The translations under genes and the position numbers were made by a program. A stretch of DNA of 15,701 nt from an uncultured Rhodopirellula sp. (GTDB taxonomy: Bacteria; Planctomycetota; Planctomycetia; Pirellulales; Pirellulaceae). The notes under the pieces were generated by a model, which did no database searches, was not told the DNA's origin, and was given only the letters and a program-made list of their open reading frames with translations. Shown here piece after piece: positions 1,676 through 15,701 of the stretch (its first letter is position 1; each line of letters opens with the position of its first letter). Where the stretch lies: positions 1-15,701 of the forward strand of contig CAJXTM010000012.1 of assembly GCA_913061385.1 (NCBI GenBank). The letters run 5' to 3'.

Positions 1676-3697
1676 ATGGGCAACTTTTCTAAAACGATTG
1701 TGGCAGTTCCTGCTGATGAAGCTAATCAAGAATGGCTTTGTGATTTGTCGGATGCTGACCTGCTCGATGCATGGGCGCGAGATCAGTTGCGGCCGGCGCT
1801 CGCTGAATTGATTACGCGATATAGCGTGATGGTATTGTCGGTCTGCCGACGAGGTTGTGCACGAGAAGTTGATGTTGAGGATGCTTTTCAGACAACGTTT
1901 TTATATTTGGCTCGCAATGCTGCATCGATTCGGCATCCCGAACGACTCCCTGGGTGGTTGCAGCGTGTGGCTCAGCGATCAGCCGTTGCTACGTGGAAAA
2001 AAAATCGTCTTCGATTTAAGCCACTTGGTGATCGACCCGCCGCTGTCGAAGATCCACTTGATCAACTGACTCATCGGCACGAGTCAGTTGTGTTGGATGA
2101 AGAGTTGTCTGATCTGCCCGAAAAATATCGTGCGGTTATTGTATTGCACCATTACGAGTCGCTGACGGTACCGGACTTGGCAGTTCACTTTGATACGACC
2201 GTGGGTGCGATCCGTGGGCGTCTGCAGCGTGGCAGGAAAATGCTTGCGGCACGCCTCAGGCAACGAGGTCTGATGCCGGCGGTTGCTTACGCCAGTGTGA
2301 CAGCAGGAAGTGTACAAAACGTCGACGCAGCGGAAGCCGTATCGAGACTACTCACAACGATGGAAGGCGGGGAATTGCCGGATCCACCCATCGACTCTTT
2401 TCTTCTCAAGCCTCTTCTCTCTGAAGGAATTTCAAAGATGCTATTTCTATCCAAAAGTATGTTGGTTGGTGGAGGTCTCACACTTCTGTTGTGCATCGTT
2501 TCCGGTGATGGTCATCAAGCAATTTTGACCGATGATGAAAACCGACCTCGCACAATCCAGTTAATGCCGCAGACCTTGGGTCAAGACAGCGGTGATTCCG
2601 ATGTAGCGCTCGAAATTGGTAGCGGTGCCTCACCCAAAGACCCAGCTGGGAAGAGCAGCGGAAACAGGATGGAAGGTAGGCCTGACGTGGGTATGGGTGG
2701 CGGCGGTATGGGTGATGGCAGGTATTCGGGAACACTTCAGAAAAACCTGCTTGATGCTTGGAAATTGGACAGCAAGACGGCAGAAAGTGTTCGGGAGGCT
2801 TTGGATAGCAGCTACACATTCGAAATTGATGTGCCGCTTTCAGGTTTGAGCAAAACTCTTAGTGACTTGACTGGTCAGCCCATCTTGTTGAATCAGCGTG
2901 CCGTCAAACAAGCGAATCAGGATTTGGACATACCAATCAAATACTCGAGGGAAATGACACCTCTTCGGACTGCCATGCGGCAAATGTTGCGACCTCTGTA
3001 TCTGCGGGCGAGTATCGAGAACGATGGTATCGTGATTACGGCTGACCATGCTGCGCTTGCCAAGGAAGGAATTGGAACTGATGCATGGCTCAACGTCGAT
3101 GACGAGATGGAGCGAGATTTGTCAGCGAAGCTTCAGCAGAAAGGCGTTTTTGAATTCAATGATCTACCTTTAAGCGAGTGCATAAGCAGTTTAGCGGCCA
3201 AATTCGATCTCAAAATGATCATTCGTGAACTTGACTTGGAGGACATTGGATTGACGGCCAACGAGCCCATTACCTTGTCGCTTGTCGACATCACGCTGGG
3301 AGATGCGTTAAACGAACTCCTTTCATCTCTGGATTTAACCTATACGTTGACGGGTGGTCTCGTAGCCATTACGTCGCAAGAGGCAGCAGAAGAGCGATTG
3401 CCTAGCCGGATTTACTGGCTGGATGGTACGGGACTCACGCACCAACAAGCCAGTGCGATCATTCAAGCGACCGTGAAGCCAGACCTTTGGCAAAGCGTAG
3501 GTGGCCCCTCAAGTATTTCGGAATTCATCAACCCTCGCGCTGGGTTAGTGATTTCAACGACTTACGCCTGTCACAAAGAAATTGAGCGGATCATGGATAC
3601 TGTACGGCAGTCTCAGTTCCGTTCGGATCCGAATTTGGAGTTCTTTGTACCGTTAGTGCCGAGTAATCACATGGGCATGGGTAGCTTGCACTTCTGA
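1676..3697 (+). CDS. ECF sigma factor fused to membrane anchor and STN/secretin-type domains
   Basis: Residues 40-110 are sigma region 2; DVEDAFQTTFLYLARNAASI at 66-85 is close to the AEDAFQATF signature of planctomycetal ECF factors. Residues 140-198 are region 4, with the helix-turn-helix around 163-190 (LTVPDLAVHF...GAIRGRLQRGRKML). After a linker comes one hydrophobic segment at about 256-276 and a Gly/Met-rich linker (339-350). Two similar STN-like modules follow at about 381-456 and 491-566. A secretin-type module at 578-645 contains the typical PDLWQSVGG and ends LVISTTYACHKEIERIMDTV. The natural topology is a cytoplasmic sigma domain, one membrane span and a periplasmic sensor region. 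Family knowledge: STN domains of TonB-dependent transducers control ECF factors through anti-sigma proteins; here sensor and sigma are one chain, so release by proteolysis or tethered action is inferred. There is no clear Shine-Dalgarno. The stop is TGA. Confidence 0.9.
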   Translation: MGNFSKTIVAVPADEANQEWLCDLSDADLLDAWARDQLRPALAELITRYSVMVLSVCRRGCAREVDVEDAFQTTFLYLARNAASIRHPERLPGWLQRVAQRSAVATWKKNRLRFKPLGDRPAAVEDPLDQLTHRHESVVLDEELSDLPEKYRAVIVLHHYESLTVPDLAVHFDTTVGAIRGRLQRGRKMLAARLRQRGLMPAVAYASVTAGSVQNVDAAEAVSRLLTTMEGGELPDPPIDSFLLKPLLSEGISKMLFLSKSMLVGGGLTLLLCIVSGDGHQAILTDDENRPRTIQLMPQTLGQDSGDSDVALEIGSGASPKDPAGKSSGNRMEGRPDVGMGGGGMGDGRYSGTLQKNLLDAWKLDSKTAESVREALDSSYTFEIDVPLSGLSKTLSDLTGQPILLNQRAVKQANQDLDIPIKYSREMTPLRTAMRQMLRPLYLRASIENDGIVITADHAALAKEGIGTDAWLNVDDEMERDLSAKLQQKGVFEFNDLPLSECISSLAAKFDLKMIIRELDLEDIGLTANEPITLSLVDITLGDALNELLSSLDLTYTLTGGLVAITSQEAAEERLPSRIYWLDGTGLTHQQASAIIQATVKPDLWQSVGGPSSISEFINPRAGLVISTTYACHKEIERIMDTVRQSQFRSDPNLEFFVPLVPSNHMGMGSLHF

Positions 3698-4663: not shown

Positions 4664-5278
4664 TCAGTTATCTCCGCGTCGCTTCGGTGCAACGTATGCA
4701 TCGAGTGCAGTGGCTAAATCGGTCGTCTGCTGTTTGGTTAAGCGTTGTTTGGATTGTTCAATCATGGTGATGAAGTAGCCACATTCCTTTTCGGTAATCG
4801 GGCAACCAATATTGCCTTGCGGGCTATCTGAGTTGATGATTTCATCACCAGCACTATCAAGAATCGTTATCCAAGGCAGTCCAGAATTGGCACCGTGCCC
4901 CAGCTTGGTTGCGGCTTGCTTGCCATTTTGCATGTCTTCAACATCAATTTTGAGAATAATGAAGTCCTTCTCAATCAGCTCTGAATTCTTTTCGAGGAAC
5001 TCCTCGAGGACTTTGCACCAGCCTCACCATGTGGCACCTAGATGAACCAGAACTCGCTTATTATCGATTTTTGAAGTGGCAATAGTTTCATTCAATAACT
5101 CAATTGCGTTGACTGCGGATAAGGTGTTTTCGATGCTCGAATTATCGGGAGTGACTGGTTGCTGTGTTGGTACTTGGGCTTCGGGTAAGTCGGATTCTGG
5201 TGCCATTGCCAGCTGCGGTGCGGGGGTGCACCCAGCGAGAATCAGCAGGGCGGTGGCAGCGTGAAGTGGCATCTTCAT
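4664..5278 (-). CDS. Candidate selenoprotein: thioredoxin-like lipoprotein with UGA at the active site
   Basis: A continuous frame with one internal TGA (5024-5026) encodes 204 residues. Residues 1-17 are a lipoprotein signal ending in the lipobox LAGC, so Cys17 would be lipidated. Residues 18-56 are a Pro/Gln-rich linker. The thioredoxin fold follows: VLVHLGATW at 76-84, then UGA at position 85, then GWC (Cys88) KVLEEFLEKN, strand FIILKIDVED at 106-115, a cis-Pro-type loop SGLPWITIL at 132-140, and NIGCP...KEC with two further Cys (159, 166). Cys-containing relatives have WCGWC at this point, so UGA replaces exactly the nucleophilic Cys. A SECIS-like stem-loop lies just downstream. The expected role is thiol-disulfide or peroxide reduction in the periplasm, tethered to a membrane. 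ATG 5278 is preferred over TTG 5326 because it gives the lipoprotein signal; no Shine-Dalgarno is seen. Alternative: a TGC/TGT to TGA error or a nonsense mutation. Confidence 0.7.
4992..5007 (-). promoter_or_regulatory. SECIS-like stem-loop after the in-frame UGA
   Basis: On the mRNA strand UCGAGG AGUU CCUCGA forms a perfect 6-bp stem with a 4-base loop. The loop starts 22 bases after the UGA, and its second base is G. Known bacterial SECIS elements sit directly 3' of the UGA inside the coding region, with a small apical loop carrying an early G at about this distance. A possible outer helix pairs AAGUCC (5008-5013) with GGACUU (4962-4967). No folding program was run. Confidence 0.5.
5024..5026 (-). 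other. In-frame UGA at the thioredoxin active site (candidate Sec codon)
   Basis: On the minus strand the codons read GCC ACA TGG TGA GGC TGG TGC, giving A-T-W-UGA-G-W-C. Coding potential continues without a shift for 119 codons to TGA at 4664-4666. It is the only stop inside the frame. Confidence 0.75.
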
Positions 5279-5874: not shown

Positions 5875-6285
5875 TTAAAATGGAGTGAGTTTGCGCCGAG
5901 CCAAATGGCTTCCAATGATTCTCATCGGTATGCATGCAAGTATAAGGTTCAGAAGAATGAACCACAGCGGGCCTCCCCCGATGGCCCCACCAGTAAGAAA
6001 AAATACAACGATGATCAGGGAAAAGCTCATCGGGTGGCTTACGATGAGCCGAGCGTCAATCGCAGCACCGGCGAGTGTGACGAGAGCGTGAGCAAGAAAT
6101 GGAAAAATGAAGGTTGCAGGTGTCAGTGAGTTGATGTTCTTCTGAAGATTGTCGACATCTGACGTGCCCACTTCGATTGGATTCGCAATGACATAGGCTC
6201 CGACGGTGATAAGACCATTGCTCACAAGACTTTCAGCGAAAAATCATGCGATGTCGGCGAGCGTGTTCAGTGCAAATATTTTCAT
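5875..6285 (-). CDS. Small membrane protein with in-frame TGA at codon 14, hypothetical
   Basis: ATG 6285 has a strong ribosome-binding site (GGAGAG at 6294-6299, 8-base spacing) and reads MKIFALNTLADIA, then TGA at 6244-6246, then FFAESLVSNGLITVGAYVI. Without the TGA it is a 136-residue protein with about four helices: the N-terminal one, then FIFPFLAHALVTLAGAAI, SFSLIIVVFFLTGGAI and PLWFILLNLILACIPM. I recall similar uncharacterised bacterial proteins that share the pattern of an N-terminal helix, a short loop, FPFLAHALGTLVGA and a YIPMGWLGG-like end; in them a small residue such as Gly sits where the TGA is, so GGA to TGA is plausible. Translation could restart at GTG 6225, giving 116 residues without most of helix 1. 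The gene may be a recent pseudogene, an assembly error or a readthrough case. Confidence 0.6.
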
Positions 6286-6353
6286 GCTTGTTGCTCTCCA
6301 GCCCAGAACAATGCCTGTTGCGAACCAATGTACCGTGTTGATGGAACTGGTGT

Positions 6354-7208
6354 TTAAAAGCCAACAATGGATTTGTGGGCGGACGTCACGACTTCTTTCA
6401 TATGATCAAAACTTAGCGTGCCAATGTCGTCGCTCATTTGATGATAGTGAGGGTTGCGCAGGAAGGATGTATCGTTGATCATCAATGCTGGGATGTCGAA
6501 TTCCCAGTAACTTCGTTGGTCCGACATTCCAGCGAGGCTTTCAATCATGGGGTGATCGATGATCTGCACGTCGATCCCAGTGTTGGTTTTCATGAGTTCA
6601 AAAACCCTTTGGTTGAATTCATGATATTTCTGTTTGCCAACAACGGCGATGAAGTTCGCTTTTTGTGGGTAGGCTGCCTTCAAGCGTGGGTCGGGATAAG
6701 GTTGATCGTCATCATTGAAAAACCCGATCATCTCAAAATTGATCATGCCAATCAAATCATCTTTTTGATCCTTGACCGATTTCGCGTGTACATAGGATCC
6801 CATTTCATGAGTGCCATAATAGGGCGGTTCTTCGAGACTGAACGCGACAAAGTCGATACGGTAGTCAATTGTTGGCTGTCCCTCAGCAACAAGTCTCGCT
6901 GATTCCAGCAGCCCTGCGACAGCACTGCCATTGTCATCTGCACCTGGCTGGTCCCCAAATACATCGTAGTGAGCACCCACGATGAGACGACGTCTCTTGC
7001 CCGAGTTGTAAGACGCAATCACATTACGATAGTTCAGATCACCGGCCTCGAATGGCTGCTCACTCACTTGCAAGCCATAGCTCGAAAATTCCTGCTTCAT
7101 GTAGTCACAGACACGATCCAACGATGCGGTATTAAGATGATTTCGAAAGGGCCTAAGGCTGGTCAGAAAATCGACGTGCTGGTAGAGCAATGTTTGATCA
7201 GCTTTCAT
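6354..7208 (-). CDS. M28-family zinc peptidase
   Basis: This 284-residue single-domain metallopeptidase hydrolyses N-terminal residues of peptides or similar amide substrates. The metal site is complete: GAHYD with His80, GADDNGS with bridging Asp91, LEEPP with catalytic Glu126 and ligand Glu127, NFEMIG with Glu159 in the Asp/Glu ligand position, and NPHYHQMSDD with His256 near the end. The length fits the minimal M28 fold without PA or C-terminal domains. No signal peptide is visible, so it is probably cytoplasmic unless the true start lies upstream; ATG 7208 has no clear Shine-Dalgarno. The downstream gene begins 68 bases after it. Substrate unknown; aminopeptidase or glutaminyl-cyclase-like activity cannot be separated here. 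It ends in TAA. Confidence 0.9.
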   Translation of the reverse strand: MKADQTLLYQHVDFLTSLRPFRNHLNTASLDRVCDYMKQEFSSYGLQVSEQPFEAGDLNYRNVIASYNSGKRRRLIVGAHYDVFGDQPGADDNGSAVAGLLESARLVAEGQPTIDYRIDFVAFSLEEPPYYGTHEMGSYVHAKSVKDQKDDLIGMINFEMIGFFNDDDQPYPDPRLKAAYPQKANFIAVVGKQKYHEFNQRVFELMKTNTGIDVQIIDHPMIESLAGMSDQRSYWEFDIPALMINDTSFLRNPHYHQMSDDIGTLSFDHMKEVVTSAHKSIVGF

Positions 7209-7348
7209 GGAAAAATGAGTGTCTGATGCTGCTGTAAATGGTAACGCGGTTGGAAGTGGGAATGGGATTGTACATCTGGCTGTTTAACCATCTGTTTCAA
7301 TTACTTGTAAGTGCTGTGCTTGTGAGTCTGCTATTTCGTGGGTTGGAC

Positions 7349-8569
7349 TCAATCTGGGAGTGCGTCATTAAGGTTTCTGAGTGCTGAATAAATCGCGGTC
7401 GTTATTTTGGCGGGTTGGCTACCTTGTGTGTTGCACATGACGACGATTCCATGCCTGCCGTTTGGATAAACGACCATTCGTGTGCGGGTTTCATCCTGAG
7501 ATCCATTATGCGAAATCTTGAGCGAGTTGCCGCTGTTGGATACCACGACTCCCAGGCCATAACTTGATTCTTTTCCATCAGTGGTGGTTTGGCGAGTCCA
7601 CATTGCCGTGGACATCGCCTGGTCAATGAGCGTTGAGTTCGCAAGTGCGGTGGCGAATTTGGCAAAGTCTTTAACATTCGATTTGTAGCCCCCCGCACCA
7701 TGTTTCCAGAAGTGGGGAGAATCGGGTACTTCTGCAGGTTTCCCATCTAGGATTTCGTAAGCCCGTGTCCAGTTGGCTTGCTGGTTTGCATGAAGATCAA
7801 GTTGAAAAGAGGTTAGGTTGAGTGGATTGATGATCCTGTCTTCCAGTTGCGCACTGATGGGTTCATTGCCCGCTGCTTGAACAACCGCGCTAAGCAACAC
7901 ATAAGCGTAGGATGAATATCCGGTCTGCGATCCGGGTTCAAAACGAAGAGGTGACAGGGTGAATCGACTGATGCTTTCAATCGGATCGAGTTCGTCCAGC
8001 AGGTAGGATTTCCCTGCCTTATTAGCTGCTTCTCTTGAAGAGATCACTGTACCGTTGGAATAGTGTGGAATTCCGCTTTGATGACACAGCAGTTGCCGGG
8101 TGGTGATTGGCTGAAGTTGATCTGGTAGGTTCGGGCAGTATGACACAATTGCTTTATCGAGATTCAGGTCGCCATTTTGGACTAGTTGCAGAGCAGCGAT
8201 TGACATCAGCGGTTTAGAATTTGAGGCCCAATTGAAAATCGTGTCATCAGTCACTGGCGTGTGCGATTTTATGTCGGAACACCCATAGCCTTTGGTGTAG
8301 ATGACCTGTGCATCCTGAATGATGCCAATTGCGATGCCGACAATATTTTGTCTCTTCATTTCAGCATTCACAGCCGCATCAACCATCTCACCTTGGATGA
8401 AACGACCTTGGCAAATACCCTGTTGCGGGACTGTCATCAGTATCAGGAGCAAGAACATGCCATGAATCACACGATGTGGACCATCGTGGTGAAATGACAA
8501 TCGTTGGTGAGCCGTTAGAGGCTTGGGCTGTGATGTGTTGGGTTGGTAGGTCACTCTAACTTTACCCAT
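7349..8569 (-). CDS. Serine hydrolase, class C beta-lactamase/esterase family
   Basis: The protein has the serine beta-lactamase-like (Pfam Beta-lactamase) fold. The SxxK motif is Ser116-Asn-Ser-Lys119 in NWASNSKPL, the second motif is Tyr218-Ser-Ser220 (usual form YxN, here Ser), and the third is His354-Asn-Gly356. Such proteins are exported esterases, D-amino-acid peptidases or penicillin-binding-protein-like enzymes; resistance function should not be assumed. A hydrophobic stretch at 38-54 (MFLLLILMTVPQQGICQG) is a signal peptide. Translation may therefore begin at ATG 8458 rather than ATG 8569; the longer form overlaps the upstream gene by 19 bases and has an unusual polar 37-residue lead. 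Neither start has a clear Shine-Dalgarno. It ends in TGA. Confidence 0.9.
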   Translation of the reverse strand: MGKVRVTYQPNTSQPKPLTAHQRLSFHHDGPHRVIHGMFLLLILMTVPQQGICQGRFIQGEMVDAAVNAEMKRQNIVGIAIGIIQDAQVIYTKGYGCSDIKSHTPVTDDTIFNWASNSKPLMSIAALQLVQNGDLNLDKAIVSYCPNLPDQLQPITTRQLLCHQSGIPHYSNGTVISSREAANKAGKSYLLDELDPIESISRFTLSPLRFEPGSQTGYSSYAYVLLSAVVQAAGNEPISAQLEDRIINPLNLTSFQLDLHANQQANWTRAYEILDGKPAEVPDSPHFWKHGAGGYKSNVKDFAKFATALANSTLIDQAMSTAMWTRQTTTDGKESSYGLGVVVSNSGNSLKISHNGSQDETRTRMVVYPNGRHGIVVMCNTQGSQPAKITTAIYSALRNLNDALPD

Positions 8570-9045
8570 TCGGCATCGTCGTTGAGTTGGGCAAATGAGT
8601 TGGCATATTCGGCACGACGAAATTCATAGTCAACGCTATCACCATACGCTGTAATATCAAAGGCAGGGGGTCGAAAGATTGAGAGGATGAAAACAGGCAG
8701 TGCGGCAACGAGAATCAGTCCTGCTGCCACCCATTTACCAAGGGGTTCTGGCGCAAAGTTGGCAACTTGCGGCCACACGAAGGTCATGATTAATCCTGCC
8801 ACCGCGATGCTTGCCAAAATACTGTAGATCTTGCGCTTGCGGATTTGAGCGGTGCAACGTTGACAACAGGGAACGTGAACGGTGAAAACTTTCCCAAACA
8901 CCATCAGGATAGAAGTCAGCAGCCCAATTGTGTGGGTGCGCACTTGAATCGTGTTGCCATTTGTGCTGAGATCACACTGGACACAACGCGTGGGAAACTG
9001 AGCGTCGTGATTGCGTGGCAGATTTACATCAATGCTCAGGGGCAT
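8551..9045 (-). CDS. Cys-pair (zinc-ribbon-like) two-helix membrane protein, hypothetical
   Basis: The 164-residue protein begins with an N-terminal CxxC (Cys21, Cys24) and a second Cys group PCCQRC (Cys60, Cys61, Cys64), spaced as in a four-Cys zinc ribbon. Two helices follow at about 74-94 and 104-124. The conserved-looking C-terminus FDITAYGDSVDYEFRRAEYA then leads to FAQLN. I recall uncharacterised planctomycetal proteins with this order, in which the C-terminal piece probably forms a small beta structure. Function unknown; zinc binding is inferred from Cys spacing. Its stop TGA lies inside the start of the long form of the next gene. An AGGA is present about 11 bases before ATG 9045. Confidence 0.75.
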   Translation of the reverse strand: MPLSIDVNLPRNHDAQFPTRCVQCDLSTNGNTIQVRTHTIGLLTSILMVFGKVFTVHVPCCQRCTAQIRKRKIYSILASIAVAGLIMTFVWPQVANFAPEPLGKWVAAGLILVAALPVFILSIFRPPAFDITAYGDSVDYEFRRAEYANSFAQLNDDAEWVKLE

Positions 9046-9096
9046 GACGCGAGGTTTCCTGATCTGTTGGAATCATTGTTGAGAATCTGTGCTGCG

Positions 9097-9594
9097 TTAT
9101 TCAGTTTCAGTTTTAAATAACTGAAAGCCACGTTTGAGGTAGTTTTCAAGTGCATGCTTGTGGTCGTTACTGCAGGTGTGTACCCAAACTCGTCGTGTGT
9201 CGGGATTGAGCCAAGCAGATTCGATTGCGGCTGTGAGCATGATGCTACCTAGTCCTTGACCAATGAATTCGGGCAGGAGTCCGAAATACATGATTTCAAC
9301 ATTACCATCGTGTTGTGAGTCCAATTCAAAATATCCTGCACGTTCTCCTTTCCAGAACCCGAGCCAAGTATTCATTGTGGTACTACCAACATATTGGCTC
9401 CACTGGCTATCGTCCCACATTAAACGGTCTGTCCAATGCCACGCGGACCCAACATCCCGATAGAGTTGCCGATTCAGTGCTGGGTCTGCTGGTTGCACCA
9501 TAACGATGTTGAAATCGGCTGAATGCTGTTTGTGTACCAACGCATGTCGATCGAGCATCTCCAAGTGGAATATCTTTATCACATCTTCCGACAT
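9097..9594 (-). CDS. GNAT-family N-acetyltransferase
   Basis: This 165-residue protein has GNAT motif A at about 98-120 (NVEIMYFGLLPEFIGQGLGS), where GQGLG is the pyrophosphate-binding turn for acetyl-CoA. It is followed by a helix (MLTAAIESAW), a strand RRVWVHTCSNDHKHALENY and the typical end YLKRGFQLFKTE. Residue 75 onward (NTWLGFWKGERAGYFEL) matches the strand before motif A. The acceptor substrate cannot be told. ATG 9594 (MSEDVIKIFHLEM) is preferred over ATG 9639 because it starts just before the fold; both are possible and neither has a clear Shine-Dalgarno. It lies 56 bases after the bPH2 gene and 51 bases before the next gene, so co-transcription is likely. Confidence 0.88.
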   Translation of the reverse strand: MSEDVIKIFHLEMLDRHALVHKQHSADFNIVMVQPADPALNRQLYRDVGSAWHWTDRLMWDDSQWSQYVGSTTMNTWLGFWKGERAGYFELDSQHDGNVEIMYFGLLPEFIGQGLGSIMLTAAIESAWLNPDTRRVWVHTCSNDHKHALENYLKRGFQLFKTETE

Positions 9595-9650
9595 TGATAC
9601 TTCATTTTTTGTTGGAAAGGTTGCTGACAACGAAAGCATTCCATCGTGTT

Positions 9651-10214
9651 TCAGCTATTCGGTCGTTCGCTTGTTTCTTCAAGAATTGACTCGATACGAA
9701 CAAGAGAGTCTCGTATCTCTGTCAGCAGCGAGTTGCTGTCAGAAAAACCAATTTCATCGAGGGATTGCGATGGGCTGACTGAAGACTTCGCTGCTGCCTG
9801 CGCTTCCCGCTGGTTTAAGACAGCTTCTCGAAATCCCGGTGCATTAACGATTCCTGTCAGCGAAACAAGTGATCCGTCTCCCGATTGTCCGGCAGTCTCG
9901 ACAGTTAGGGTGTGCAGTTCGAAAAATCGCATGATCGGTCCCTGAACCATTCCCATGTCGGTGATCTTTTCAAGTGGGATCGTCTTTTCAACCCGGATGA
10001 AAATTCCTTTCCGGACCTTCAGAGCTTTGTCGGTCAAGATGCATTCCATGCGGTCCAAATAGCGTTTTGTCATTGCAGTGCCAATTGGGAACCACAGCAG
10101 CAATAGTGGGATGCCAACGACCGTGACCGTCAGTAAAATGGCACCGCCAAGAAGCCAATAGACACAGACTTTGGGATTGAATTCCGCTTCGCGAATATCT
10201 TGTTCTGATGACAT
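9651..10214 (-). CDS. Bacterial PH domain (bPH2, YdbS-like) membrane protein
   Basis: The 187-residue protein has two close hydrophobic segments (about 16-46: VCVYWLLGGAILLTVTVVGI with PLLLLWFPIG). A bPH2 domain follows, spanning about 50-135: RYLDRMECILTDKALKVRKG, then IFIRVEKTIPLEKITDMGMV, then a strand ELHTLTVETAG and LTGIVNAPGFREAVL. The C-terminal tail (140-187) is polar with a short amphipathic helix ending LVRIESILEE. This order is normal for the YdbS/DUF304 group, whose role is not well defined. It is the first gene of the minus-strand series and faces the 655-base non-coding region, so the series promoter is expected there. It ends in TAG. Confidence 0.9.
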   Translation of the reverse strand: MSSEQDIREAEFNPKVCVYWLLGGAILLTVTVVGIPLLLLWFPIGTAMTKRYLDRMECILTDKALKVRKGIFIRVEKTIPLEKITDMGMVQGPIMRFFELHTLTVETAGQSGDGSLVSLTGIVNAPGFREAVLNQREAQAAAKSSVSPSQSLDEIGFSDSNSLLTEIRDSLVRIESILEETSERPNS

Positions 10215-10869
10215 GAGTTCCGACTCGATCGATGTTTGGGAGTACGTTTGGCTACAGGAGATGCAGGTTGTGAATAGTATGACGGATCAATGAAAAAGTT
10301 GTGTCTCGAAGTCGAACAGCAGTCTAGCATTTGCAGACTGGTCGGCGTGGCTTGATGCGAGCGTCTAGAAACAGGATGATTTGTGATTCATTCAGCAGGT
10401 GCGAATCGCGAGAGCGTGCAATTTTATGTGAGAGATAGTCGCTCGTGGTTGAGAAAAAGTCGTGCGATATTCAAGTTCGATGTTTGCCGGCGAGCGATTC
10501 GATGATGCCAAGGTGTACCAGATGCTAGCAATCGCCGTTGCAAATTAGGACACCATTGCTCCTGCACGAATCGTGCAGGTCGCAGATCATTTTGGTGCTT
10601 GGATTAGCCGGTTTTCAGTGATCTTGTAGTTCGAATCAGGAGTCTGTTTCTTGGTGGTTTGAGTACGACTTCAGATGATTTAAAGCGATTTGATCTGGAC
10701 TGTGGAATGCGGCATTATCTATTTAGGTAAGTAATCACGGCATTTTGTATGCTTGTTCGACATACATGATTTTCCGGCATTTTCCATATCGCTCTGAAGA
10801 AATTCTCGACGATTCGGCGCCAACAGTTCAACGATCACCAGTTTTCCACTTGTCACCGAGAATCGTGTA
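10215..10869. other. Long divergent intergenic region
   Basis: These 655 bases lie between the minus-strand series and the plus-strand glycosyltransferase gene, so both promoters should lie here. I found no credible gene on either strand. It holds a perfect 19-base palindrome at 10561-10579 and a weaker inverted repeat TGTATG (10746-10751)/CATACA (10761-10766) with a 9-base spacer about 100 bases before the glycosyltransferase ATG. No tRNA-like or other known RNA was recognised. Confidence 0.6.
10561..10579. promoter_or_regulatory. Perfect 9+1+9 palindrome, candidate operator
   Basis: CCTGCACGA A TCGTGCAGG is a perfect inverted repeat with a single central base, in the non-coding region between divergent genes. 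The size and compact centre suit a DNA site for a dimeric regulator. As RNA it could fold as an 8-bp stem with a 3-base loop, but no U-tract follows on either strand, so a terminator is less likely. Confidence 0.45.
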
Positions 10870-11826
10870 ATGGGACGCATCGTTAGCAGATCTTCGCTCA
10901 AGACTCCTGTGGCGATGTTCATCTTCAATCGACGTGATGTAACGGCTCGAGTTTTTGCAGAAGTACGGCGTGCCCAACCAGAGCAGTTATTTCTTATCAG
11001 TGATGGCGCGCGATCTGACCGACCCGGTGAGGAACGTCAGGTTTCGTTGACCCGCGAGATCGTGACCGACATTGATTGGGAATGCGATGTAAAAACTTTA
11101 TTTGCTGATCGAAACATGGGCTGTAAAACGCGAGTTTCGAGTGGATTGGCGTGGGTGTTTGAGCAGGTAGAAGACGCAATCATTCTTGAGGATGACTGCC
11201 TACCACACCCTAGTTTTTTCGGTTATTGCCAAGAACTGCTTGATCGCTATCGTGATGATGAGCGGATTGGTGCGATTAGCGGCAACAACTTTCAAGAAGG
11301 GGTGAGTCGCACGCCTCACAGTTACTACTTTTCGAAGTATTTCCACTGTTGGGGTTGGGCCTCTTGGCGGCGGACGTGGCAAAACTTTGATTTGAATTTT
11401 CAAACATGGCCATCCTTTCGAGATCAAGGTGGATTGTTGACCGTTGCCGATTCACCCACGGAGTCTTGGTACTGGACACGTCTTTTTAACGAACAATACT
11501 CAGGTGATACGAAAGTCAGTAGTTGGGCTTATCCGTGGCTCTACAGTGCGTGGGCTCAGAATGCACTCACGATTTTGCCAGACGTCAATCTGATCAGTAA
11601 TATCGGATTTTCAGGTGAAGGAACTCATTGTACAGATTCGGATTCCGAGTTTGCCAATATGGATGTTTATGATATTGGGACTCTGCAGCATCCTGAGACT
11701 GTTTTTCGTAGCGTTGAAGCTGACAAAGTTTCATTTGGACGCAAGTACTACCGCGATTCTATTTCTCGTCGAGCACGCCGGTTGTGCCACCAAGTGTTTG
11801 CAGGTGGCGGGAAAGCAGCGGCCTAA
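10870..11826 (+). CDS. Glycosyltransferase, GT2/GT-A-like (HlpA-type)
   Basis: This 318-residue protein resembles the sugar-nucleotide transferases often labelled hemolytic protein HlpA-like. The N-terminal strand is TPVAMFIFNRRDVTARVFAE (12-31), then LFLISDGARSDRPGE. The metal/sugar-nucleotide site is AIILEDDCLPHPSFF, with Glu107-Asp-Asp109 in the DxD position. The acceptor-side region is YFHCWGWASWRRTW (157-170) and WAYPWLYSAWAQNALTILPD (219-238), followed by NIGFSGEGTH. The substrate is probably a surface polysaccharide or glycan, but the exact sugar is unknown. It has no membrane segment, and no partner polysaccharide genes lie nearby, which is unusual for such enzymes. ATG 10870 is the first ATG of the frame; Shine-Dalgarno is weak (GAG 10 bases upstream). 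It ends in TAA and converges on the kinase gene. Confidence 0.85.
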   Translation: MGRIVSRSSLKTPVAMFIFNRRDVTARVFAEVRRAQPEQLFLISDGARSDRPGEERQVSLTREIVTDIDWECDVKTLFADRNMGCKTRVSSGLAWVFEQVEDAIILEDDCLPHPSFFGYCQELLDRYRDDERIGAISGNNFQEGVSRTPHSYYFSKYFHCWGWASWRRTWQNFDLNFQTWPSFRDQGGLLTVADSPTESWYWTRLFNEQYSGDTKVSSWAYPWLYSAWAQNALTILPDVNLISNIGFSGEGTHCTDSDSEFANMDVYDIGTLQHPETVFRSVEADKVSFGRKYYRDSISRRARRLCHQVFAGGGKAAA

Positions 11827-11962
11827 TGAGATGATTTTCTTCGTCAAGAGACCTGCGGTTGAGCGTTTCGTATCTTGAAGAATGGTTCAGAAGTGAATGA
11901 ACTAATGATGTGTTGAAAATTACGTCAGCTGTGGATCATAACAGGCCAACGCATGCGTAAGG
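11827..11962. other. Convergent intergenic region
   Basis: These 136 bases separate the 3' ends of the glycosyltransferase and kinase genes. A long interrupted inverted repeat (11837-11849 with 11873-11882, 3-base bulge and 23-base loop) might end transcription from either side, but it has no U-tract. Nothing else is seen. Confidence 0.3.
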
Positions 11963-14900
11963 CTAGTTACCCTGAAAGGCCTCGTTATCGAGCCACTGAG
12001 TCATGGTATTGAATACTTCGTGTGCGTTGATGATGTGATGAGCAGAAAAAAGGATGCGTTTCTTTTGTGGGCTACCCAAGTCTGTGAACATGGGATTCTG
12101 AGAAGTTTCGACTGGAAACACTTGATCTGATGTTCCATTCATCATCAGGATGGGTTGTTTCACTTCGGGGGTAAAGTGAAAGGCCTGAATTTCGGGACGG
12201 CTTTTGTGGTGTGGAATGTAGCCTCCCGAAAGCAGTACAGCTGCGCGATAACGGGTATCAGTCGCCAGAGCCATGGGTCCGCGAAGAGCGCCCTGGCTCA
12301 AACCAAAATAGACGAGTCGCTTGGGGTCGACATCATTGCGTGTCAGCAGATAGTCGACCACTCGTGAGCCATCTTTAGTCACTGCAATGTAGTTATCTCT
12401 CGCTCGAATGGGTGTGTTTTCAAATTGTTGACCCAAGGTACTGCCCGACCATCGTTCATAAGTTCCTTGATAGACGGGGAAGCAGACGATCCTGCCGCTG
12501 TCTGCCAATCGCTTCAGTAAACTGACATGAGGCTCGTTTTCCAGCTTGAGTTCCCGACCATTTTCCCATGCAGTGACTCCCGGAACGAAGATGATGGTCT
12601 CCATTTGACCCGCGGCATCATTGGGTATCAGAAGATGTACCTTGAAACGTTCGTTGTTGTAGGGGGCGGTAATCTCAGCCACATCATGACGAACCTGATT
12701 ATTTGCACCTGCAATGATATTCGCCGACCCAATGATGGGGCGCAGTGGTAAATCGTGGTCATAAAGATACATTGCACGAAGGCTTTGAAATGGTTCACGC
12801 TCTGGCCCCAATTCAAGACTTTTGGGTTTCGCTATACTTGCCAGCCCCTCCGCCGAAGGCTCAGATCCCTCCGGGTATCGAACGCATCGGAACCCATTTT
12901 CCAAGCTGCGGTCCCACGGGGAAAGGCTCATCCTCATGCTGAACGAGTAGTGGGGTGAGTTCCAGTCGCCACCGAGGATGTATCGTTTGCCTTCGTCGTC
13001 GGCGGTCTGACACCATTCTCTGGCATTGCCTGCTAGATCCAACGCGTCGAAACGTCCGACACCGGTCATCGTTCCGCAAGGTCTGGGACCAGCACTGAGA
13101 AAATTGCCAGCTGCTGCCATGATGCCTGGTTGGTCTGAGTCGGCAGCCCATTTCCAGTGATGCAGGGTTGGCAAGTGCTTGGAGCGGTACTTGGCGTACG
13201 CACATGCTTCAAACCAGCTGATACCTCCTACTGGGGATGTGGAGTTACCTTTGGGGTAGCGACCATTTTTCCAGCCAGCAGGACCGGGTTCCCCAGTCAG
13301 GTCGGTGAATAAACTCATGGCTTGCTGCCATGGAATGGTTTCCCCTTTCTGCTCGAACTGAATTCCCTCCCAGAATGAGGGATTCTGATAGCCACCTGCA
13401 TCGACAAATGTCTGGAAGTCTTCGTTTGAAACTTCGAGTCGGTCGATCCAGAATTCATCGATTGGCACCCCATCTTCTTTTTCGTTGTTGTAGATCCAAA
13501 CCATCCCAGCAAGTTGTGTTTCTTGGGGGACAAGATAGCTACACGAAAAGGTCTCAAACGCTTTTGGTACTTTCAGCTGTATGTCCCGTGAGACGTAGCC
13601 TGATTTTTCAAAACGTATCCGGATTGGCCCTCTTGGTAGTTTGACATTCGTGAGGGGCGTTCTACCAAGAGTCATCCATTGATCTTTTTCAGATGCGGCA
13701 TCACGAATTTTGACACATGTGTCGGCGGGGAGTTTATCGAAGCTGGTTGTCAACATGAGATCATTCATGATTTCTTCGAATAAGGCATCTGCTTTGATCC
13801 GAGGCTCGAGTGCTTGTATCATTTGATACGCGATGACTGTCTGCTGGTCGTTAATCAGTTCTCGGATTTTGGGAGCAACAATCTCCCTTGCTTCTTGAAG
13901 TTGTTTTGCCTGCTCCTGTGATTTATTCAACTCGATTGATGTCTGCGCGAGTTGTAATTTTTGGTGTCTACGTTCGGTACTTTGGATGTAGAAGACGAGT
14001 CCTGTCAGCGATAACACAATGGCCATCGCCAGCGTCACAAGAAATGCAATGACTTGGTACTTGCATCTCCGGACAAACAGTTTGGTCCTCCGAATGATTG
14101 AGGGCGGTTGAGCTTGGATTGGCAGATTGTTCTGCAACCGTTCGATGTCATCCGAAAACGATTTGGCTGTTGCGTATCGATTGTCAGGATCTTTCTCCAG
14201 TGGTTTTGCAACAATCCAATCAAGCTCGTGTTCAAGCTGTTTGCAGAGTGAGTTCGGTGTCGCTTGCCGGTTGTCAGCAATTTGTTGAAGATTTTCGGAA
14301 CTGTGAATAACGCGGCTCAGGCGAGGGGGAACCCTCTCACGTGTCACGGCTAGATGTTCTTCGAGAATTTCAGCGATCTCGAACTCGTGTGCCAGAGGTA
14401 TTTTACCACCCAGCAGCTCATGCAAAATCACTCCCAGGGTGTAGATATCAGATCGGGTGTCTACATTCTGCTGTTTCGCGCCGGCCTGCTCCGGGCTCAT
14501 GTATTGCAGGGTCCCGATGATTTGATCCGCTTGCGTGAGCGGATTTTCAGACTGTGGACCCCAGTCATGCATCTTTGCGACTCCAAAGTCGATGATCTTT
14601 GGAACCGGTTCGTGATTGTATTCAGTGACCAGTATGTTTGAGGGTTTAAGATCACGATGGATGATTCCTCTGTAATGTGCGTGCTGAACCCCGTGGCAGA
14701 CTTGTTGGAAAAGTTCAAGACGCGTTTTAATTGTCAACTGGTGATCATCGCAATATCGCGTGATCGGTATGCCATCAATCCATTCCATGGTTACGAATGG
14801 TTGACCGGTAGTGGTTGAGCCGGCCGAATAGACGGCTGCAATATTCGGGTGGTGAAGTGTTGCCATGTAGCGACGTTCGGATTCGAACCGCTCAACAGCT

Positions 14901-15256
14901 TGCTGATCAAACTGGGCTGTCCGCAGCAATTTTAAGGCGACTTTGCGGCGAATTGGTTCCAACTGCTCTGCCAAATAAACCATGCCCATTCCACCTTCCC
15001 CAATTTTCCGGAGAAAGCTGTAACCGGGAATGTCAGGCAGCGGGGAATCATTTGCAAGCGTCGCCTTGTGGCGTGATTGATCCTGTGCTTTGTCGAGCAG
15101 GGAACAGGGTTCTTGATCGGCGATCAATAGAATCTGTAATCGCGTTCGCAATTCTGTGTCCGTACCGCACACTTGGTCGAGATAAACAGATCGGAGACGT
15201 TCCGATTCTATTTCCGTGGCAATTCGGAAGATTTGATCTTCGTCGACTGTCGACAT
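11963..15256 (-). CDS. Membrane Ser/Thr kinase with PEGA, SUMF1-like and alpha/beta-hydrolase domains
   Basis: The 1097 residues fall into clear blocks. Residues 79-375 are a Hanks-type kinase with P-loop GEGGMG (86-91), Lys109, HRDLKPSN (200-207), DFG (223-225) and SPE (254-256), all catalytic residues intact. One transmembrane helix lies at about 402-425, a coiled coil at 426-466, and a PEGA-like domain at about 509-575. Residues 583-793 are SUMF1/formylglycine-generating-enzyme-like, with GMVWIYNN, SPVGGISWFEACAYAKYRSK, LAGNAREWC and NGFRCVRYP. Residues 860-1092 are an alpha/beta hydrolase of dienelactone-hydrolase type, with nucleophile Ser987 in GLSQG, Asp1044 in GTSDQVFP and a His among 1073-1079. 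Inferred topology: kinase in the cytoplasm, the rest outside. The FGE-type catalytic Cys pair is absent from the ILGGDW region, so oxidase activity is unlikely. GGGAGA 8 bases before ATG 15256 supports the start. The gene lies 115 bases after an ECF sigma gene. Confidence 0.95.
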   Translation of the reverse strand: MSTVDEDQIFRIATEIESERLRSVYLDQVCGTDTELRTRLQILLIADQEPCSLLDKAQDQSRHKATLANDSPLPDIPGYSFLRKIGEGGMGMVYLAEQLEPIRRKVALKLLRTAQFDQQAVERFESERRYMATLHHPNIAAVYSAGSTTTGQPFVTMEWIDGIPITRYCDDHQLTIKTRLELFQQVCHGVQHAHYRGIIHRDLKPSNILVTEYNHEPVPKIIDFGVAKMHDWGPQSENPLTQADQIIGTLQYMSPEQAGAKQQNVDTRSDIYTLGVILHELLGGKIPLAHEFEIAEILEEHLAVTRERVPPRLSRVIHSSENLQQIADNRQATPNSLCKQLEHELDWIVAKPLEKDPDNRYATAKSFSDDIERLQNNLPIQAQPPSIIRRTKLFVRRCKYQVIAFLVTLAMAIVLSLTGLVFYIQSTERRHQKLQLAQTSIELNKSQEQAKQLQEAREIVAPKIRELINDQQTVIAYQMIQALEPRIKADALFEEIMNDLMLTTSFDKLPADTCVKIRDAASEKDQWMTLGRTPLTNVKLPRGPIRIRFEKSGYVSRDIQLKVPKAFETFSCSYLVPQETQLAGMVWIYNNEKEDGVPIDEFWIDRLEVSNEDFQTFVDAGGYQNPSFWEGIQFEQKGETIPWQQAMSLFTDLTGEPGPAGWKNGRYPKGNSTSPVGGISWFEACAYAKYRSKHLPTLHHWKWAADSDQPGIMAAAGNFLSAGPRPCGTMTGVGRFDALDLAGNAREWCQTADDEGKRYILGGDWNSPHYSFSMRMSLSPWDRSLENGFRCVRYPEGSEPSAEGLASIAKPKSLELGPEREPFQSLRAMYLYDHDLPLRPIIGSANIIAGANNQVRHDVAEITAPYNNERFKVHLLIPNDAAGQMETIIFVPGVTAWENGRELKLENEPHVSLLKRLADSGRIVCFPVYQGTYERWSGSTLGQQFENTPIRARDNYIAVTKDGSRVVDYLLTRNDVDPKRLVYFGLSQGALRGPMALATDTRYRAAVLLSGGYIPHHKSRPEIQAFHFTPEVKQPILMMNGTSDQVFPVETSQNPMFTDLGSPQKKRILFSAHHIINAHEVFNTMTQWLDNEAFQGN

Positions 15257-15655: not shown

Positions 15656-15701
15656 CTGTCTCTTATACACATCTCCGAGCCCACGAGACCGAGGCTGATC
15701 T
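15656..15701. other. Illumina Nextera adapter and i7 index (artefact)
   Basis: Bases 15656-15689 are the reverse complement of the adapter at 14-47, and 15690-15697 are the reverse complement of the same index. The sequence is synthetic and marks the end of real data. Confidence 0.98.

Follow-up and report, generated by a model that had tools for sequence, protein, structure and literature searches.

An in-frame TGA in a thioredoxin-like lipoprotein gene

The window, by which we mean the whole 15,701-nt stretch analysed here, carries on its minus strand the gene of a thioredoxin-like lipoprotein that is predicted to contain selenocysteine (Sec; 4664..5278). With one internal TGA read as Sec, the minus-strand frame from 5278 to 4664 encodes 204 residues plus a TGA stop and reads M...LAGC...ATW-TGA-GWC...GDN-TGA; the extent of the gene is based on this frame, on Pfam matches and on homologues along the frame. 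The internal TGA is codon 85 (5024..5026, minus strand) and provides the first position of a UGWC active site, and the terminating TGA lies at 4664..4666 on the same strand. At the N-terminus, a putative signal peptide (5228..5278, minus strand; MKMPLHAATALLILAGC) leads to the lipobox L-A-G-C, which was recognized by inspection as residues 14–17, with the Cys at position 17. In alignment A1, which comprises the window protein and 16 relatives with the TGA (17 rows), a Cys stands at the lipobox place in 15 rows, and the remaining two rows start later. Cys88 (5015..5017, minus strand), the presumed resolving Cys of UGWC, is invariant in all 17 rows. The comparison of Sec-type with Cys-type domains brought out a third conserved Cys, Cys159, within the motif GNIGCP (4802..4804, minus strand).

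When the TGA was read as a residue, two Pfam models spanned the site, namely Thioredoxin_7 (PF13899; 37.3 bits, cut-off 27) and Thioredoxin (34.2 bits, cut-off 23.5). Thioredoxin_7 also matched every member of alignment A1 (17/17, E 0.001 or better), and a confident predicted model of the window protein has a thioredoxin fold. The initial annotation had proposed that a TGA takes the place of the first active-site Cys in a lipoprotein with a thioredoxin fold (WUGWC), and this proposal is borne out by the intact frame and by the models that match across the site. Its further suggestion, a membrane-tethered reductase in the periplasm, would be compatible with the lipobox and the fold.

Conservation of the TGA codon among homologues

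A search of 241 genomes of the same family returned matches to the window protein in 70 of them, the source genome included (E 1e-8 or better), and each of the 16 best-scoring matches contained one TGA. Thirty loci were fetched. TGA formed the first position of W-U-G-W-C in 17 of them (the own locus, L016–L031 and L035; 16 relatives), and the other 13 had TGC or TGT (Cys) at this place. The 17 do not include three single-TGA genomes (G176, G209, and G210) or the lesser TGA matches in G108 and G163. The relatives share 30–73% identity with the window protein and keep the frame on both sides of the TGA. Conservation of the TGA at the codon 85 place in 16 relatives at such identities is far beyond chance, in agreement with the earlier argument that a random stop would be unlikely to fall on this codon.

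A scan of named genomes, of which the best 80 of 112 loci were kept, extended this distribution. The titles of these 80 loci are nearly all of Planctomycetota or its groups, together with one acidobacterium and three entries of uncultured bacterium, and they include Rhodopirellula sp. UBA8648, Rubripirellula sp. ANT-60, and three Mariniblastus. UBA8648, ANT-60, and Plancto7 have site sequences identical to those of the same-genus loci L018, L020, and L019, respectively. The motif W[UC]xxC was present in 78 of the best 80 of 112 loci (missing in L106 and L118), with 27 TGA, 13 TGT, and 77 TGC codons at its second position when a tandem protein is counted twice. Merging of the named-genome loci with the first 30, with sequences required to be distinct over 93 bases, gave 31 Sec sites and 104 Cys sites. 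In a phylum-wide search, 54 of 392 genomes matched at E 1e-15; the loci fetched from it contained 19 TGA sites (7 already known and 12 new) and 7 new Cys sites. Altogether, TGA was found at the codon 85 place in 43 sites across the phylum, the own site included, 41 of which are distinct over 48 bases.

These data bear on the possibility of a sequencing error or a pseudogene, in which a single copy would have changed from TGC or TGT to TGA by a point change. The TGA is indeed one base away from a Cys codon, the source assembly is metagenome-like with 1197 contigs, and a TGA occupies a Gly codon in a further gene of the window. However, TGA stands at the same codon at 43 sites, in other assemblies and lineages as well as in the own one, the frame is maintained on both sides despite the divergence of the relatives, and the downstream hairpin described below is frozen. 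Since the TGA is conserved in independent assemblies, we reject this explanation and consider its probability negligible.

A SECIS-like hairpin downstream of the TGA

In addition to what had been annotated initially, we found a hairpin resembling a bacterial Sec insertion sequence (bSECIS) that lies 22 nt 3' of the TGA (4993..5006, minus strand). It consists of a CGAGG stem, an AGUU loop (4998-5001), and a CCUCG stem, and its assignment is based on frozen synonymous codons, pair counts and the fold of its core. The segment between +18 and +33 (bases after the T of the TGA) is near-identical in the 31 Sec sites, third codon positions included, and the flanks are variable. Codons +6 to +10 of these sites, which mostly encode Leu-Glu-Glu-Phe-Leu, are almost exclusively CTC (61/62), GAG (60/60), and TTC (29/30), and in the rest of those Sec genes all six Leu codons are in use and Glu is encoded by GAA 223 times and by GAG 259 times.

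The inner four pairs occur in 31/31 of the first distinct Sec sites and all five pairs in 30/31. The outer pair is mismatched in L019. Among the Cys sites, all five pairs occur in 3/104; the three that have the inner four pairs include one with a G at loop position 1 or 2. The pairing rule was defined on the first 31 Sec sites and then applied to the later ones, where all five pairs and a G at the second loop position were present in 12/12 TGA sites and in 0/7 new Cys sites. When all 43 sequences were compared (41 of them distinct over 48 bases), pairing was seen in 99.5% of cells, and two pairs have changed on both sides, i.e., compensatory changes (L021 and L203). Judged by shuffles that ignore relatedness, the covariation score over the 43 sequences was matched by 0 of 500 shuffles, and the first 31 sites by themselves gave weak covariation (a score as high in 40 of 500). 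The 21-nt core of the window hairpin folds at -9.0 kcal/mol (z -2.63 vs shuffles); for the whole 48-nt stretch of the window, folding was not better than in shuffled sequences (z -0.59), and four of the five pairs are present in its optimal structure.

The published bSECIS model, as given in the pertinent passages of a 2026 review, has a loop of 3–9 nt, a stem of 4–16 bp, a G in the first two loop positions, a distance of 16–37 nt from the UGA, and a minimum free energy of at most -7.5 kcal/mol, the stretch to which this energy applies being unspecified (PMC13188914). With a loop of 4 nt, 5–6 bp, a G in the second position, a distance of 22 nt, and -9.0 kcal/mol for the 21-nt core, the window hairpin lies within all of these limits. 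A combined pattern of TGA plus hairpin gave 64 matches on both strands of 225 sequences (2.3 million bases), all 64 at the WUxxC site of this gene; the pattern was written after the variants were known, and the 225 sequences are enriched for the thioredoxin-like gene. A scan of the window against Rfam gave no match at the gathering score. Downstream of the terminating TGA the hairpin pattern is absent, and TGA would therefore carry two meanings within one gene. Being so strictly kept, the hairpin could serve directly as a consensus in the search for further planctomycete selenoproteins, and it could also be used to test the recognition of SECIS elements by planctomycete SelB.

Alternatively, the internal TGA might be a true stop, so that two short proteins, or the N-terminal one only, would be made. 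This is how gene callers treat the gene: the 90 matches in the protein collection include many short pieces (82–123 residues), mostly unnamed or labelled 'hypothetical protein', and both N-terminal and C-terminal pieces are found. Five of the pieces were read: two are N-terminal and stop immediately ahead of the TGA place (...ATW and ...ADW), and the other three are C-terminal. However, termination at codon 85 would split both the active-site motif and the thioredoxin domain and would leave the hairpin without a role, and the Cys homologues read as one protein, which makes a true stop highly improbable. The databases thus appear to hold one gene as two broken halves, with relatives in many planctomycete bacteria.

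Sec machinery in relatives and in the source genome

Every one of the 16 TGA relatives has selB and/or tRNA-Sec over the cut-off. The gene selB was found in 15 of these genomes (exception G204) and tRNA-Sec in 14 (exceptions G165 and G162, 83% and 88% complete, respectively). Genome G204, although 98% complete and with the TGA gene, selA, and tRNA-Sec, yielded no selB over the cut-off. In the same-family search, five same-genus genomes without selB and tRNA-Sec (G197–G200 and G215) showed no TGA match. Presence of selB is common without the TGA gene, as it was over the cut-off in 12 of 17 comparison genomes; in a family-wide draw, it was over the cut-off in 55 of 100 genomes.

The presence of this machinery argues against a readthrough of the UGA as Cys or Trp without selenium. 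Relatives do have Cys at this codon, and other systems are known to insert Cys at Sec codons when selenium is low. However, TGA also terminates the gene, the relatives possess Sec machinery, and the hairpin falls within the bSECIS limits, so that we assign readthrough without selenium a very low probability.

A search for the Sec machinery, which had been suggested with the initial annotation, was thus positive in relatives. In the source genome it gave selD (256 bits), but no selA, selB, or tRNA-Sec in an assembly that is incomplete (77.7% complete). The own selD (contig C281; L052/L184) appears by eye to be fused behind an oxidoreductase-like part. A SelA match of 79 bits in the source genome was taken as a paralogue because a similar weak match occurs in genomes without selB and tRNA-Sec, and the tRNA-Sec matches were assigned by ARAGORN to tRNA-Ser (two), tRNA-Cys, tRNA-Leu, tRNA-Gly (two), and tRNA-Asp.

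The congener G202 shows where the missing genes would be expected. In its locus L170, selB (6890-8815), selA (8812-10221), and a fused selD (10218-12371) follow each other with overlapping ends. Contig C392 of the source assembly matches the left side of L170 up to position 4962 and stops there, and contig C281 starts, with adaptor sequence, inside the fused selD at about position 10590. The same arrangement was seen with G203, where the ends of C392 and C281 likewise flank the selB-selA position. The piece absent from the source assembly measures ~5.6 kb in G202 and is wider than selB-selA, as it comprises, besides selB and selA, the beginning of the fused selD and an ORF of 150 residues. In the 10-kb tRNA-Sec region of G202, the source assembly matches no more than the initial 643 bases, where contig C576 ends, and the remaining 9.4 kb around the tRNA-Sec place has no match. 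Because the ends of C392 and C281 enclose the place that selB-selA takes in the congeners, it is likely that selA and selB are missing through an assembly gap. In addition, matches of 150–165 bits in frames of ~400 residues, present in most other genomes, were absent from the source assembly; these would be EF-Tu by our inference, in which case their absence underlines the incompleteness of the assembly.

The lack of detectable selA, selB, and tRNA-Sec could also be taken to mean that this Rhodopirellula species has lost Sec decoding and that the gene is a relic. However, the contigs end at the selB-selA locus, the right-hand one starting inside the adjacent fused selD, the 9.4 kb around the tRNA-Sec place is likewise unmatched, and the TGA gene is free of decay. 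We therefore judge a loss of Sec decoding to be very unlikely.

Domain architecture and history of the Sec domain

The Sec domain occurs in two builds. In genomes of the same family, the Sec protein consists of a single domain, and in several other planctomycetes (e.g., L097, L105, L107, L113, and L166), the UGWC domain is located ~125 residues downstream of an all-Cys domain. A tree was built from 94 domains (31 Sec and 63 Cys; 145 columns), after 41 of the 104 Cys sites, which had no GNxGxP-type motif, had been left out. On this tree, 3 changes of the Sec label are required (shuffled mean 26.3), which is consistent with one gain of Sec followed by two reversions to Cys; the direction of change is an inference from a tree with 145 columns and many weak forks. 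Two Cys rows stand among the Sec rows, L033 (genome G154) and L036 (genome G065), both on long branches. They look like reversions from Sec to Cys because their genomes still have selB and tRNA-Sec over the cut-off. Such apparent reversions in genomes that retain selB and tRNA-Sec would provide a direct test of the benefit of selenium.

The third Cys (residue 159, GNIGCP) is present in 29 of the 31 distinct Sec domains and in 6 of the 63 Cys domains of the tree set, and 10 of the 12 Sec sites found later have it too. GCP also occurs in a Cys clade separate from the Sec group (L129, L137, L138, and L151). As the Sec domains essentially form a single clade and the Fisher value for the association ignores relatedness, we rejected the third Cys as independent support, and its association with Sec may reflect history rather than mechanism. 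Two Sec domains (L145 4088 and L159 4088) have GGP in place of GCP and a Cys ~10 residues later.

Comparison with known selenoproteins

The 2026 review counts 119 selenoprotein families, and in its Table 1 we judged three rows to be nearest to the window protein: thioredoxin (PF00085, UxxC), thiol:disulfide interchange protein (PF13098, UxxC), and Trx7/PDZ (NF041199, CxxU) (PMC13188914). Other thioredoxin-like UxxC rows include SaoT and the HUIPC protein, and no row of Table 1 names a Thioredoxin_7 UxxC lipoprotein (PMC13188914). With the Sec-containing thioredoxins and thioredoxin-like UxxC proteins (PF00085), as characterized there, the window protein shares the thioredoxin fold, Sec in place of the first CxxC Cys, Cys homologues, and a downstream SECIS (PMC13188914), but it differs in being a lipoprotein with Thioredoxin_7 as its best Pfam match and UGWC as its motif.

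The thiol:disulfide interchange selenoprotein (PF13098 in the review rows, PMC13188914; 'Trx-like 2', cd02953, in the pertinent part of PMC2398784) resembles it in having UxxC in a thioredoxin domain. PF13098 matched 13 of the 17 members of alignment A1 (E 0.001), but the window protein itself stayed below the cut-off (21.6 bits of 27); a curator might merge the two families. Trx7/PDZ proteins (NF041199) also have a Thioredoxin_7-type domain with Sec, but they contain CxxU and a PDZ domain, in contrast to the UxxC of the window protein, and the Pfam scans gave no PDZ match; NF041199 matched 3 of the 17 A1 members weakly (best E 0.0028). The thioredoxin-like C-terminal part of the TsoB rhodanese/DsbD fusion (NF045694) matched 17 of 17 A1 members, but the window protein scored 30.8 bits against a cut-off of 805 and differs in length and Sec pattern. 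No NCBIfam model exceeded its cut-off for the window protein. Among solved structures, the disulphide isomerase 3fk8 of Xylella fastidiosa was the best sequence relative (53.1 bits) and ranked first by Foldseek, but it is not a selenoprotein by its title and shares 24% identity over the Foldseek alignment. C-terminal domains of DsbD were also among the structure and sequence matches. Plasmid sequences gave no match, and viral contigs gave 9 weak relatives with 25–52% identity.

The relevant sections of the GOS paper describe broad 'Trx-like 1-3' UxxC groups (PMC2398784), which could contain such sequences. Planctomycete selenoproteins are already reported in the corresponding part of PMC4807772. 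A planctomycete UGWC lipoprotein family does not appear in the accessible portions of PMC5029168, PMC12013277, PMC1242214, and PMC5330540, nor is it described in the titles and abstracts of the matches listed, a comparison outside which the candidate table of PMC4807772 lies; a literature text search for 'UGWC' gave nothing on the subject. Thioredoxin-like proteins with UxxC Sec are a known kind, and the present family is, as far as could be seen in these sources, new as a named family.

Proposed decoding and function

Because several independent lines of sequence evidence, such as the conserved TGA, the hairpin, and the machinery in relatives, point the same way, UGA 85 is very probably decoded as Sec. 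One thioredoxin-fold lipoprotein of 204 residues would then be made. During translation, the hairpin would recruit SelB with Sec-tRNA(Sec) to UGA 85, and the second UGA, having no hairpin, would terminate translation. The product would be exported and then, as its sequence suggests, lipid-modified at Cys17. To judge from sequence and fold, disulfides or other oxidised sulfur in envelope partners are probably the target of the Sec85 selenolate, and the resulting mixed selenenylsulfide may be resolved by Cys88. The usual electron donor for such a protein would be of the DsbD/CcdA type. A role as an envelope disulfide reductase is more likely than not, though assigned with less confidence than the decoding of the UGA. 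These results point to a selenium-dependent, envelope-facing redox protein in a large and environmentally common phylum.

More speculatively, the single-domain lipoprotein and the tandem WCGWC-WUGWC proteins may together form a widespread unannotated planctomycete family with one near-invariant SECIS and a single origin, in which the third Cys and the tandem Cys domain would act as a built-in relay that passes electrons to the envelope Sec; we regard this combined picture as possible but doubtful.

Gene neighbourhood and other features of the window

Neighbouring genes of the Sec gene are common within the genus and within the Mariniblastus-like group but not between the two, and no functional neighbour was found to be common beyond the genus or, in the loci of the Mariniblastus-like group, beyond that group.

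Two other genes in the window had been noted initially to contain an in-frame TGA. One was identified as the gene of a small membrane protein (5875-6303, minus strand), with the TGA at 6244-6246 and Gly at this place in the homologues of L017 and L092; the second was not identified. Because the homologues have no Cys there, the TGA at 6244-6246 is a nonsense change or indicates a later start, and is not Sec-like.

Both ends of the window, positions 1-47 (...AGATGTGTATAAGAGACAG) and about 15656-15701 (CTGTCTCTTATACACATCT...), presumably represent sequencing-adaptor-like sequence, which is also present on both ends of contig C281 and on one end of C392. The peptides predicted at these ends of the window are artefacts.

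The ORF at 1676-3697 (plus strand) has sigma-70 regions 2 and 4 and, further on, a match to STN (secretin/TonB N-terminal) below the cut-off; its homologues lie near the thioredoxin-like gene in L017, L091, and L092. The ORF at 11963-15256 (minus strand, 1097 aa) appears by eye to comprise a Ser/Thr kinase followed by formylglycine-enzyme-like and hydrolase-like parts.
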